64,000 bases of DNA, taken from Lachnospiraceae bacterium. GTDB lineage: Bacteria > Bacillota > Clostridia > Lachnospirales > Lachnospiraceae. Position 1 is the stretch's first letter. Every line of letters starts with the position of its first letter. The translations under genes and the position numbers were made by a program. Below the pieces are notes generated by a model. That model was not told the origin of the DNA. It made no database searches and was given only the letters and a program-made list of their open reading frames with translations. The DNA lies in NCBI GenBank assembly GCA_016284175.1, contig JAEEOJ010000145.1, forward strand, positions 1 through 64,000, read 5' to 3'. Positions 50,531 to 55,865 of this stretch are shown in pieces.

Positions 50531-52696
50531 TTATCCGATCTGAGCCTTGTAAAGATTGTAGTAAATTCCTTTGTTGTTTAGAAGCTCTTCATGAGTTCCG
50601 ATTTCAGCTATGTTGTGACCGTCGATAACCATGATTCTGTCGGCTTTTCTTAATGTCGAGAGTCTGTGTGCAATTGCAAATGTTGTCTTATCCTTTGTAA
50701 GTCTCTCCAAAGCTTTCTGAATCATGAATTCGCTTTCGGTATCAAGACTTGCGGTCGCTTCGTCAAGTATCAGGAGTCTGGGGTTTGTAAGTATTGCTCT
50801 TGCGATTGCGACTCTTTGTCTCTCACCGCCCGATAACGAATAACCTTTCTCTCCGACGTATGTGTTGTAGCCGTCGGGTGTATGACATATGAAGTCATGC
50901 GCATTGGCCATTTTTGCTGCTTTTACGACCTCTTCATAAGTTGCATCGGGCCTTGAAAATCTGATATTGTCGAGGATTGTTCCCGAGAAGAGAAATGTCT
51001 CCTGCAGCACAACGCCAAGCTGTGAATGATACGATTTTGAATCGATATCTTTTATATCAACGTTATCTATTAAAAGATGTCCGTCGTCGACTTCATAGAG
51101 TCCCATCAAAAGGTTTATAAGCGTGGATTTTCCTGTTCCCGAAGCGCCTACGATACCGATCATTTCACCGGGTTTAATCACTACATTGATGTCTTCAAGC
51201 ACCGGCTGATATGACTTGTATCCGAAGGTTGCGTGATCGAATGTAATCTTGCCTTTGATTTCTATATCTTTTATGGTCTCTGTGTCCTTATCGGCTGTCT
51301 CCTGCGAGAGAATATCGTTGATTCTCTCAAGGCTGCTTGTAAGGAGTGTAAGCTCTCTCGGAAGCCAGCTCATCCAGTTGATGTACTGGAATAAAAGAGT
51401 GGTGTATGTAATGAACTGATACAGCTCGCCGGCCGACATTTTGCCGTTAAATACGTCGTGTCCGCCGAAGAATACAACTATTACGACACCCATTCCCATC
51501 AGGAATGAAATCATCGGATAAAAGATAGCCCAGAAGGTTTCGTTCTTTCTCTGGATTCTCGCAAATTCAGTAGACAAGCCCTTGAAACGGTTTGCTTCCT
51601 CTTCTTCCCTGCCGTATGTTTTTACAACTCTCATACCGGAAATTACGTCCTGAAGGTCGCTTGATACATCATCGTTTTTCCGAAACTGCAGATGGAAAAT
51701 TCTGTAAACGGTTTTACGGAATCCGACGATGAGTACCACTACCAAAGGCACCGTAATAAAGGTTAAAATCGCCAGTTTGAAGTTAAGAACCATCATAAAA
51801 ATGATGTCCCAGATAAAGATGAAAAGCACCGCAAAGAGGTTACAGAAAACGTCCTCCATAAACTCTCTGATGCAGGTGGTATCCTGGGTAATTCTGTTTA
51901 AAAGTTCGCCCGGTCTTCTGTCGTTGATAAAAGCGAGCGGAAGTTCCTGGTACTTTTTAAACAGTGCCATTCTTAAATCCGCAGAGATCTTTGCGCCGAG
52001 TTTGGTGGAAGCATTGCTCTTAAAATAATTAATTACTACTATGCTCACACTCAAGGAGAACATGATTAAAAGCAACACCAGTGCGTGTTTAAAACCGCCG
52101 CCTCCCTTAAGCACATCGTTTATTAAGTGCTTCTGAATCTCGGGATTTAAAAGGGTGGTAATGGCTACTAAAACCATCAGCATAAATACTCCGAAGAAGT
52201 CCTTTTTGTAAGGCTTGGCCATTCCTATAAATTCTTTTAGGAAGCCACCTTCTTTTGAACATCTCGGACAGTTCTTGGTGCCGGGAATCGCTCTGCCACA
52301 CTTCGGACACATCTTTTCGTATTCGCTGCTTTCAACTTCTTCGAAACGTCCGGAAATGAGGATGTTGATTCCTCTGGCAATATAAGCGTATCTGCTTAAA
52401 TGCTTTGCGGAATAGTGAACCACTACTCTGTCTTCGCCATCCTTGGTGACAACGAGGATTCCGCCGCCTACCTTTGCCTCGGCTTTTGCCCTGCTTAATT
52501 CACTTATTTCAATTGTTTCTTTTATGGTTTCGCCGTCAAAAATATGGATTCTTTTGGTGGTGACAAAAAGATATGCACCCCTTATCCAGCCGCCGTCGAC
52601 ATCGATATCATACGGAATTGCATAATATATTCTCTCGTCTTCAGACAACGGAATCTTCTCCGCTATTTTGGGCGATACATCGTATTTTAAAATCAT
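50531..52696 (-). CDS. ABC exporter half-transporter with N-terminal domain and zinc ribbon
   Basis: This 721-residue protein has an unusual N-terminal part: about 115 residues with a PH-like beta pattern (YYAIPYDIDVDGGW, LFVTTKRIHIFDGE), then a zinc ribbon with Cys130, 133, 143 and 146. The standard exporter core follows: six membrane segments (about 165-450) and a nucleotide-binding domain with Walker A GASGTGKST, signature LSGGERQR and Walker B LLILDEATAS. The ATPase motifs look intact. Downstream of the DUF1854 gene (22-nt gap) and the second half-transporter, it probably forms a heterodimer. The substrate is unknown. The N-terminal part should sit in the cytoplasm. Confidence 0.92.
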   Translation of the reverse strand: MILKYDVSPKIAEKIPLSEDERIYYAIPYDIDVDGGWIRGAYLFVTTKRIHIFDGETIKETIEISELSRAKAEAKVGGGILVVTKDGEDRVVVHYSAKHLSRYAYIARGINILISGRFEEVESSEYEKMCPKCGRAIPGTKNCPRCSKEGGFLKEFIGMAKPYKKDFFGVFMLMVLVAITTLLNPEIQKHLINDVLKGGGGFKHALVLLLIMFSLSVSIVVINYFKSNASTKLGAKISADLRMALFKKYQELPLAFINDRRPGELLNRITQDTTCIREFMEDVFCNLFAVLFIFIWDIIFMMVLNFKLAILTFITVPLVVVLIVGFRKTVYRIFHLQFRKNDDVSSDLQDVISGMRVVKTYGREEEEANRFKGLSTEFARIQRKNETFWAIFYPMISFLMGMGVVIVVFFGGHDVFNGKMSAGELYQFITYTTLLFQYINWMSWLPRELTLLTSSLERINDILSQETADKDTETIKDIEIKGKITFDHATFGYKSYQPVLEDINVVIKPGEMIGIVGASGTGKSTLINLLMGLYEVDDGHLLIDNVDIKDIDSKSYHSQLGVVLQETFLFSGTILDNIRFSRPDATYEEVVKAAKMANAHDFICHTPDGYNTYVGEKGYSLSGGERQRVAIARAILTNPRLLILDEATASLDTESEFMIQKALERLTKDKTTFAIAHRLSTLRKADRIMVIDGHNIAEIGTHEELLNNKGIYYNLYKAQIG

Positions 52697-52717: not shown

Positions 52718-53251
52718 TTATAAGAATAAATCAAGTTTTCTTCTTTCCTTCTGAGTAAGAGCATTTACGTCTCTTATCTCAAATCTGTTTTCATCAAGGT
52801 CCATGATGATAAGTCTTGAATCGGATAATTTCGTAACCGCGTTGGACGCCATGTTTATAGCAAATTTGCATTCGCCCTTGTCTGTCATTACATGGAAATA
52901 CGCGTAGCCGTATTCGTCCTTGATACTCATGATTTTCTGAATGACGGGAGTAAAATAATTGAGTCTTAACTGTTCTCTTAAGATCTCTTTTGTCTCCTCG
53001 TCAAAATCATCCAGGTTTTCGATGATACCGATTTCTTTTGCCTTATCCGTGTTTTCCCTGATGGAAATGTATTTGTCGGCATCGGTGAAAGGGAAAAGAC
53101 GTACTACTTTTACCCTTTCATATTTTACGCCGTCATATGTAAAATTCACGAAGCCTCCGCTTGTACGTTCGAATTTATCCTTATTCGTAATGACGTGCAT
53201 CGCGGTCATTTCTTCGGCTTCTTTTTCAAATGTGTTTAACTCTTCTGCCAT
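52718..53251 (-). CDS. DUF1854-family protein
   Basis: This 177-residue soluble acidic protein matches DUF1854 as I recall it (VVRLFPFTDADKYISIREN, LNYFTPVIQKIMSIKDEYGYAYFHVMTDKG, then RLIIMDLDENRFEI). It lies between two ABC half-transporter genes, 11 nt after the upstream one. DUF1854 is known mainly from genes next to such transporters, some linked to cyanophycin metabolism, but no cyanophycin genes are in this window. Its position suggests a cytoplasmic partner or regulator of the exporter. No function is established here. Confidence 0.8.
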   Translation of the reverse strand: MAEELNTFEKEAEEMTAMHVITNKDKFERTSGGFVNFTYDGVKYERVKVVRLFPFTDADKYISIRENTDKAKEIGIIENLDDFDEETKEILREQLRLNYFTPVIQKIMSIKDEYGYAYFHVMTDKGECKFAINMASNAVTKLSDSRLIIMDLDENRFEIRDVNALTQKERRKLDLFL

Positions 53252-53262
53252 GTCATTCTCCT

Positions 53263-55602
53263 CTAGAAACTGCTGCCTGCTGCCAGTGATTTGTTCTGTA
53301 GTTCATTGAGCTTGTGGAAAATTCCGTCCTCATTCTTATCAAGAACCTCGATCGTTCCTTCCTCAACGATTCGTCCTCTGTCAATGACTATGATTCTGTC
53401 TGCATCACGAAGTGTCGAAAGCCTGTGAGCTATGGAAAGGGTCGTTCTTCCCTTTACCAGGAGCTTGAGTGAATTCTGAATTGCTTTCTCGGTTTCGGTA
53501 TCCACGCTGGCCGTAGCTTCATCAAGTATTAAAATCTTGGGATCCGCCAAGATTGCTCTTGCTATCGAAATCCTCTGTTTCTCTCCGCCCGATAAGTCCT
53601 TTCCGGAAGCGCCGATTATTGTGTCATATCCGTCCGGCATCTTCGAGATAAAATCATGTGCTCCCGCTAGTTTTGCCGCGCGGATTATTTCATCGCCGGT
53701 AGCGTTTTCATTGCCGTAGGCGATATTCTTTGCGACGGAACCCATGAATATGTAGGTATCCTGTGAAACCATCGCAACATTTTTTCTTAAGTCCGAAAGC
53801 GCTAAGTCTTTTACGTCGACTCCGTCAATTTTAATTGTGCCTTCTTTTACGTCGTAGAGTCTTGAAATAAGATTTACGAGTGTCGATTTGCCGGCGCCCG
53901 AACGGCCGACGATTCCGAGCACTTCGCCTTCTTTTACTTTAAGATTTATGTCCTTAAGTACATTTTTGCTGACCGTATATCCGAATGTAACGTTGTCAAG
54001 TTCGATTTCTCCCTTAGGCTTCATTAAGCGTACGGGGTTTTCTTTCTCAACGATTTCGGGAATCGAATCTATAATTTCAAAGAGTCTCTGAGCAGCATTG
54101 ATACTCTCGGACCACATTCTGAATACTCTCGAGAAGAAATTCATCGGACCGTTAAGCTGTGCCACATAGCCTACGAATGTAAGCAGTACGCCGAGCTCGA
54201 TTTTGTCGGTTTTTAAAACGAAGAAAACTCCGATAATCCAGATCCAGATGCTTGAAACTTCCTGCACCAGACTGTAAAGAATGGTGAATTTGTTTCGAAG
54301 TTTTACGATGTTTATTTCAGCATCCTTAAGGTTGTTGTTCGGATTTTTAAATCTCTCGATTTCCGCATCTTCCTGACCGAAAGCCTTTACTACTCTCGCA
54401 CCTGTCAAGTTGTCGTTTGCCTTGCCCGATACCGCCTTTTCCGCGCGGTGTCTTTTGCCTGATAAATTCCAGAGACCCGGACGAAGCTTAACCGTCATAA
54501 ATACGAGTAACGGTAAAAGAATGCAGGCGATAAGCGCCATCTGCCAGTTAAGTCTGTACATTACCACGAAAGTAATGATGATGGTCATTCCGTGAATAAA
54601 TACCGAAGGTATGCCGTCTATGAAAAACTCTGTCACTCGGTTTGAATCAGTCAGTACTCTTGTCATCAGGCCGCCGGTCTGCTTGCTCGTAAAAAAGTTA
54701 AGCGACAACCTGCTCATAGCCGAGAAAACATCGGTCTTTATATCTTTTACGGTTGCTGTTGCAACGCGTGCCATTAACGCCATCTGAACCGTGTTTGTAA
54801 TTTCTTCGATTACTCTGCTGCCGATAAGCACAAGCGCAAGAAGTAAAAGTGCTAGCACATATTTGCCTGATACGCCGAACATTGCAAGGAATTCGTTGTC
54901 TTTCTCAAGCACGTGGTCAAAGAGAACTTTACCGGTTAAATACGGCCATACAACGCTTATTGCTGCGCCCATTGCGTACGATAAAAACAAAATCGCAATC
55001 GAGAATTTGTATTTGAAAAAGTATCTTAAAACTCTTCCTAAGATTGTTCTTTTGTTGGTACACTTCGGACAAACCTTCTTCGCAGGGTCGGGATACATTG
55101 TTCCGCAAATGGGGCAGTAAAGCGATTCCTCGTCCTCTTCCTCTGCTTCTTTGCCTACGATGTCCGCATCAAAGGCCTTGCCGTTTTTGATGTTCTTTGT
55201 ATGTCTTACAAAAAGATTTATCTGCTCGAGATATGTGTTGGTCATCGATGCGATTTTTATCGGACTGCCGTCGTATTCGGCTGATAAAAGAACCGCTCCG
55301 ATCATTCTTTCTATTCTGAGATGCTCAGTTTTTGCAAGATCGTAAAGTGTAATCTCGTATTCGGCTAAGTCTTCTTCCTCGACTTTTTTATGAACCTTGG
55401 TTCCTCTGAAAAAGTGAGTATAGCCTGTCGGAATGTCGCTCTTACATACGCCGATATATTTATCTGTCAGAAAAACATATCCTAAAATATACTCGCCCTC
55501 GAAAGAAAGGTCTGCAGGGCATACCGAAAGGATATCTTTTTCGTTTATCCCGTATTCAGAAATCTGTTTTATTATGTTTTTAGTAAGTTTATTTTCTTTC
55601 AT
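53263..55602 (-). CDS. ABC exporter half-transporter with N-terminal domain and zinc ribbon
   Basis: This 779-residue protein is the partner of the 721-residue transporter. Its first 140 residues are a beta-rich, PH-like region (GEYILGYVFLTDKYIGVCKSD), followed by an acidic loop and a zinc ribbon with Cys163, 166, 178 and 181. Then come six membrane segments and a nucleotide-binding domain with Walker A GRSGAGKST, signature LSGGEKQR and Walker B ILILDEATAS. The ATPase motifs look intact, so both sites of the presumed heterodimer should work. It is the first gene of the three-gene unit. The exported compound is unknown. Confidence 0.92.
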   Translation of the reverse strand: MKENKLTKNIIKQISEYGINEKDILSVCPADLSFEGEYILGYVFLTDKYIGVCKSDIPTGYTHFFRGTKVHKKVEEEDLAEYEITLYDLAKTEHLRIERMIGAVLLSAEYDGSPIKIASMTNTYLEQINLFVRHTKNIKNGKAFDADIVGKEAEEEDEESLYCPICGTMYPDPAKKVCPKCTNKRTILGRVLRYFFKYKFSIAILFLSYAMGAAISVVWPYLTGKVLFDHVLEKDNEFLAMFGVSGKYVLALLLLALVLIGSRVIEEITNTVQMALMARVATATVKDIKTDVFSAMSRLSLNFFTSKQTGGLMTRVLTDSNRVTEFFIDGIPSVFIHGMTIIITFVVMYRLNWQMALIACILLPLLVFMTVKLRPGLWNLSGKRHRAEKAVSGKANDNLTGARVVKAFGQEDAEIERFKNPNNNLKDAEINIVKLRNKFTILYSLVQEVSSIWIWIIGVFFVLKTDKIELGVLLTFVGYVAQLNGPMNFFSRVFRMWSESINAAQRLFEIIDSIPEIVEKENPVRLMKPKGEIELDNVTFGYTVSKNVLKDINLKVKEGEVLGIVGRSGAGKSTLVNLISRLYDVKEGTIKIDGVDVKDLALSDLRKNVAMVSQDTYIFMGSVAKNIAYGNENATGDEIIRAAKLAGAHDFISKMPDGYDTIIGASGKDLSGGEKQRISIARAILADPKILILDEATASVDTETEKAIQNSLKLLVKGRTTLSIAHRLSTLRDADRIIVIDRGRIVEEGTIEVLDKNEDGIFHKLNELQNKSLAAGSSF

Positions 55603-55620: not shown

Positions 55621-55650
55621 AAAAAAAAATCACTGTTTCGCACAGTGATT
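55621..55650 (-). terminator. Terminator of the 39-residue small gene
   Basis: Minus strand AATCACTGT, GCGAA loop, ACAGTGATT, then a run of eight or more T. It ends the small transcript just before the ABC transporter gene. Confidence 0.85.
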
Positions 55651-55674
55651 TTACAAGCATGTAAATGTACGCCT

Positions 55675-55794
55675 TTATATTCTTATACCGGGAGTACGAA
55701 AAGCAAAATCAGTGCGAAGTAACTCAAAGCCGCCAGTAAATGCATTGACGGTCGCAATAAGTGATGTTTCAAAAATCACAAATAATCTCTTCAT
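55675..55794 (-). CDS. 39-residue protein in its own transcription unit (unlisted small gene)
   Basis: Not in the ORF track. The minus strand encodes 39 residues beginning MKRLFVIFETSLIATVNAF and ending RTPGIRI. GGAGG lies 8 nt before the ATG, a TTGACA-16-TATACT promoter lies at 55838-55865 and a terminator at 55621-55650, so all parts of a small gene are present. I do not recognise the protein; it has a hydrophobic first half but no clear membrane span and a Gly- and Arg-containing tail. It could be a leader peptide for the exporter operon, though the terminator before that gene makes attenuation a real alternative. Confidence 0.65.
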   Translation of the reverse strand: MKRLFVIFETSLIATVNAFTGGFELLRTDFAFRTPGIRI

Positions 55795-55837
55795 TTTTTC
55801 GTCCTCCTTTCCTTGTCTTTTTTTAATCCGTTAATTT

Positions 55838-55865
55838 AGTATATCAATCCGAGTTCTTTTGTCAA
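55838..55865 (-). promoter_or_regulatory. Promoter of the 39-residue gene
   Basis: Minus strand TTGACA, 16 bases, TATACT, followed by about 30 nt of A-rich leader with GGAGG. The remaining part of the gap before 55920 shows nothing else. Confidence 0.7.

Follow-up and report, generated by a model that had tools for sequence, protein, structure and literature searches.

On the reverse strand of the window, i.e., the whole 64,000-nucleotide stretch of Lachnospiraceae DNA that we analyzed, lies an operon for a two-part ABC exporter. Its first gene (ABC1; 53263–55602) codes for an exporter half of 779 aa that fuses an ABC permease to an ATPase, and it is followed on the same strand by genes for a 177-aa DUF1854 protein (52718–53251) and a second exporter half of 721 aa (ABC2; 50531–52696). 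The Walker A, signature, Walker B, and H motifs are intact in both ABC1 and ABC2. Outside its Pfam matches, ABC1 is extended at the N-terminus by about 180 residues, which include a zinc-ribbon-like motif (CPICG...CPKC); a CPKCG...CPRC motif of ABC2 resembles it. The closest NCBIfam models for the proteins of this operon are those of a cyanophycin-associated exporter (NF052233/NF052234) and its DUF1854 partner. We reject the implied link to cyanophycin, as all scores fall far under the curated cut-offs (542 and 509 against 880 bits; 90 against 150 bits) and no cyanophycin synthetase (CphA) above its cut-off is found in the genome. DUF1854 goes unmentioned in the literature that we searched.

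Immediately 5′ of this operon, where the sequence-only reading had placed a promoter, a GGAGG ribosome-binding site (RBS), a 39-codon frame, and an intrinsic terminator on the same strand as the exporter, we recover all four elements on the minus strand, with the exporter ATG at 55602. The promoter (55838–55865) is of the extended −10 type (TTGACA-16-TATACT, with a TG before the −10 element) and matches the consensus at 11 of 12 positions. The leader RBS, GGAGGACGAAAA (55796–55807), has its GGAGG at 55807–55803, 8 nt from the leader ATG, and doubles as region 1, the 5′ strand of a predicted anti-antiterminator. The 39-codon ORF (55675–55794) starts with ATG and encodes the peptide MKRLFVIFETSLIATVNAFTGGFELLRTDFAFRTPGIRI. 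It encompasses a small hairpin (CCGUC...GGCGG; 55730–55751), which is seen in the minimum free energy (MFE) folds, has counterparts in relatives (CCGUG/CACGG and CCGUC/GACGG) and is weaker than the other elements; region 2, i.e., codons 26–30 (55705–55718), the 5′ strand of a predicted antiterminator; and codons 31–35 (55691–55702), the 3′ strand of the anti-antiterminator. After the stop codon comes the intrinsic terminator, AAAATCACTGTGCGAAACAGTGATTTT with its U-run (55621–55652; 11 pairs), whose 5′ arm and loop constitute region 3 (55637–55652), the 3′ strand of the antiterminator. About 18–19 nt separate the end of the U-run (55621) from the exporter ATG; since this gap contains the ribosome site of the exporter itself and is too short for a further promoter, no proximal promoter other than that of the leader is available. 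A scan for promoter-like sites found two in the region against 5.2 expected, i.e., no excess, and the case against chance therefore rests on conservation rather than on the scan. No Rfam family, riboswitch and T-box families included, matched the window at its gathering score.

Among the 31 genomes of the genus, the leader is present in 10, as 11 copies, each directly 5′ of an exporter ortholog with 81% identity or more; it occurs in none of the genomes without such an ortholog. Thus, for close orthologs in these ten genomes, the question raised by the sequence-only reading, namely whether the element always precedes the exporter, is answered in the affirmative. The promoter, RBS, ORF, and terminator keep the same order before the orthologous exporter in the nine other genomes; the terminator is found in all 11 copies, and wherever the upstream DNA of a relative can be read, the same promoter precedes the leader (one copy begins at a contig end). 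Within the genus, a DNA pattern combining the RBS and the ORF end matches no other locus than this one, with an empty reversed control, and misses G026, whose ORF exceeds the allowed gap. Across 396 other genomes of the family, neither this pattern nor the leader profile yielded an accepted match. Profile matches outside the genus (L072–L077, E-values 5e-4 to 0.01) were not accepted: the four that were read are without the leader architecture, and two of the set lie within open frames longer than 700 codons. A scan of named genomes with the exporter alignment recovered only exporters of at most 42% identity, and upstream of those examined there was no recognizable leader copy.

The leader frame is open in all 11 copies, whereas each of the two alternative frames is interrupted by one to four stops, save in a single case. 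Its start, RBS, and stop are kept, with a strong RBS at near-fixed spacing, and peptide length varies (34, 37, 39, or 41 residues) through indels that are all multiples of three nucleotides. The peptide sequence itself is far more labile: its identity is 27–67% in the diverged copies, codons 2–25 show a pN/pS of 0.97, and the differences are spread evenly over the three codon positions (271, 218, and 227). The first two-thirds of the peptide are without protein-level constraint. The absence of a synonymous-like substitution pattern, which the sequence-only reading had listed as telling against its proposal, indeed holds for this N-terminal part; because the frame itself is conserved, this refutes a functional protein, not a translated leader. 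The end of the ORF behaves differently: in nucleotides 78–105, 25 of the 28 positions, third positions among them, do not vary across ten copies, vs 13 of 60 in nucleotides 13–72. Correspondingly, the C-terminal residues DFAFRTP-G are the sole well-conserved part of the peptide. Searches of Pfam and NCBIfam with the 39 residues returned no match; the leader copies share neither a double-glycine cleavage motif (GG occurs only in the G000/G014/G021 and G026 copies) nor a single-amino-acid codon run of the kind found in trp and his attenuators. That the frame is retained while the peptide varies freely and one stretch of RNA hardly changes is expected of a leader peptide and not of a functional protein.

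The nucleotide-level freezing of codons 26–35 is explained by their pairing with both the 5′ arm and loop of the terminator and the leader RBS. Codons 26–30 (UUCGCACUGAUUUU) are complementary to the terminator arm and loop (AAAAUCACUGUGCGAA) through 14 pairs with a 2-nt bulge. This duplex has energies of −13.7 to −17.7 kcal/mol in the copies tested, and of 1000 shuffled ORFs, 9 attain the best ORF:arm duplex for the window, none for G008, and at most 39 for the other copies tested. In ten copies, 136 of 150 cells of the antiterminator are paired, a count biased toward the structure, as the copies were aligned manually, and with knowledge of the pairing, after MAFFT misaligned G008 in the DNA alignment. 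Both partners are exchanged at four positions, with C-G to U-A in G011 and U-A to C-G in G005/G007a, and G008 shows both-partner exchanges from C-G to G-C and from U-A to A-U; these compensatory changes derive from few lineages (G008, G011, and G005/G007). Swap energies, which are alignment-free, agree with the region 2:3 structure for G008 and G011, and the native pairing of the seven distinct sequence combinations does as well as the best of 5040 permutations, 36 of which reach that value. In the other helix, the leader RBS pairs with codons 31–35 (UUUUCGUACUCC) in an 11-bp duplex with one mismatch, which exceeds the shuffles in every representative tested, being matched or beaten by 3–17 of 1000. 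The MFE folds of full-length leaders consist of this RBS:ORF-end helix and the terminator (the G008 sequence folded was incomplete). Both helices draw on neighboring segments at the end of the ORF and so compete with each other, following the 1:2, 2:3, 3:4 logic of an attenuator. The parts, their order and conservation, the mutually exclusive pairings of the terminator and an antiterminator that overlaps the leader ORF, and the compensatory changes are all legible in the sequence itself.

We then considered how a ribosome on the leader might bias these pairings, by folding the transcript as ended at the terminator loop end, the decision point, with the ribosome footprint masked. With the P-site at codons 1 to about 19, about 7–14 antiterminator pairs form in nearly all copies; with the ribosome at codons 23–31, the antiterminator is strongly lost in most copies, and at codons 37–39 it recovers. 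The loss is only partial in G016, G007b, and G026, and G008 loses the antiterminator at codons 7–11 too. These decision-point folds discriminate between ribosome positions, whereas the full-length leader, folded to equilibrium under the same masking, does so poorly and favors the terminator at nearly every position in most copies. Since the terminator wins at equilibrium, the switching would have to be kinetic, as it is in other attenuators. Without a ribosome, the shortened leader favors the antiterminator too in several copies; hence, an untranslated leader would be off only if the RBS helix forms first.

Taken together, these observations very probably identify the locus as a cis-acting, ribosome-mediated transcription attenuator of the ABC1-DUF1854-ABC2 operon, with the 39-residue peptide as its leader peptide. 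Of the options offered by the sequence-only reading, the leader peptide is thus upheld, and a stand-alone protein and a substrate peptide are not; its description of a 'complete transcription unit' is misleading, for the terminator would be a conditional one placed directly before the exporter. We infer that the leader is translated and that the ribosome throws the switch, in the following manner. RNA polymerase would start at the promoter, and a ribosome would begin the leader. If the leader stays untranslated, the RBS would pair with codons 31–35 and the terminator would form. If a normally moving ribosome covers codons 23–31 as the terminator arm emerges, region 2 would be hidden and transcription would stop. 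A ribosome held early, or on the last codons of the leader, would instead leave region 2 to pair with the 5′ arm and loop of the terminator, and this 2:3 pairing would block the terminator, such that the exporter is transcribed. The most likely signal would be ribosome-targeting drugs or a general slowing of translation, which we favor because the leader has no amino-acid codon run, no Rfam family points elsewhere, and there is the precedent of bmrB-bmrCD.

A sub-case of the attenuator differs from this model in its signal: the conserved DFAFRTP-G terminus might be a programmed arrest peptide that stalls the ribosome near the stop codon upon a specific small molecule or a nascent-chain event, whereby the stall would expose region 2 and block the anti-antiterminator. 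That the C-terminal residues alone are well conserved, with even the diverged G008 copy retaining D-[FY]-x-RTP four residues from its stop, speaks for it, as does the masked folding, in which a ribosome at codons 37–39 leaves region 2 available and prevents the RBS helix. However, the two RNA pairings account for the same nucleotides, invariant third positions included, and the peptide constraint is for this reason inseparable from the RNA constraint. We consider such an arrest rather unlikely, and find it a little harder still to credit the specific version in which DFAFRTP is a new nascent-chain arrest peptide sensing a specific compound that is exported by the DUF1854-linked ABC pair. In that version, the leader would sense a particular ligand through the ribosome instead of monitoring slow translation in general.

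The pairing of strong RNA conservation with little peptide conservation could also be read as an RNA-only attenuator, i.e., a riboswitch or a protein-bound RNA that happens to contain an ORF. This we regard as improbable, given a frame that is open in every copy while the alternatives are stopped in nearly all, ORF indels in multiples of three, a strong RBS at near-fixed spacing, and the lack of an Rfam family. Least probable of all is a stand-alone functional small protein or an exported substrate peptide: a good promoter, RBS, and terminator beside an exporter are what one would expect of it, but the near-unity pN/pS of codons 2–25, the low peptide identity among diverged copies, the lack of a family match and of a conserved GG cleavage motif, and an occurrence solely as the leader of the ABC1-DUF1854-ABC2 operon all oppose it, and RNA pairing explains the part that is conserved.

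The ribosome-mediated attenuator proposed here has its nearest parallel in the bmrB leader of the Bacillus subtilis bmrCD multidrug ABC exporter, in which translation of the leader and drug-stalled ribosomes raise exporter transcription, with read-through rising with lincomycin, erythromycin, and chloramphenicol (PMC4191407). Both have a short ORF before a two-subunit ABC exporter, a terminator, an antiterminator, and a predicted anti-antiterminator, here from sequence alone; the likeness is one of architecture and not of compared leader sequences. They differ in that the terminator lies inside the 53-codon ORF in bmrB and after the stop codon here, that the anti-antiterminator here uses the leader's own RBS, and that the operon here includes a DUF1854 protein. 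More broadly, drug-responsive attenuators of resistance genes, described as common in Gram-positive bacteria, have been reviewed for ermK, mef/mel, and lmo0919 (PMC5418344). In these, too, a resistance or transport gene is preceded by a leader ORF or 5′ region with a conditional terminator, and a drug-stalled ribosome favors the antiterminator, whereas their leaders and downstream genes are different. Predicted attenuators are also more numerous for ABC transporters than for any other gene family, with 205 candidates, among them one for a multidrug export operon of lactobacilli (PMC2965389); these are computational predictions of premature terminators 5′ of other transporters, and the comparison is by gene family, not by leader ORF. 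The proposed attenuator is of a known kind, here placed before a DUF1854-linked ABC exporter. This two-ABC exporter thereby gains a testable regulatory handle, and if translation inhibitors induce the operon, it probably serves these bacteria as an intrinsic drug exporter. More generally, a leader can be maintained as RNA while its peptide is free to drift, and this accounts for such frames being missed by annotation.

Other genomes show further variation upstream of related exporters. In G010 the exporter lies at a contig end, with the upstream DNA unreadable, and the G019 exporter (58%) has no recognizable leader upstream. The G009 exporter (74% over the matched part) is preceded by a short ORF and terminator of unrelated sequence: this ORF of 39 residues (L031; MFNRKQNTAEY...HRFFS) lies about 70–300 nt 5′ of the exporter match with its own promoter-like sequence and terminator, and its position before an orthologous exporter suggests leader replacement. 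On the reverse strand of L032 (G042), a 17-residue ORF, MILRFLYTVTDSEENCR, and a strong terminator are located about 35–250 nt 5′ of an exporter of 49% identity. Antiterminator pairing is not significant in the G009 and G042 leaders (31 and 54 of 500 shuffles, respectively). In G007, two contigs each carry a leader copy (L018 and L005), with differing leader versions before the same exporter start, so that either the locus is duplicated or the assembly mixes strains. The leaders of G003 and G005 (L006 and L049) are identical in residues 1–36 and differ in their tails and terminators, each being like one of the two G007 copies; this mosaic of shared residues and differing tails suggests recombination within the attenuator.
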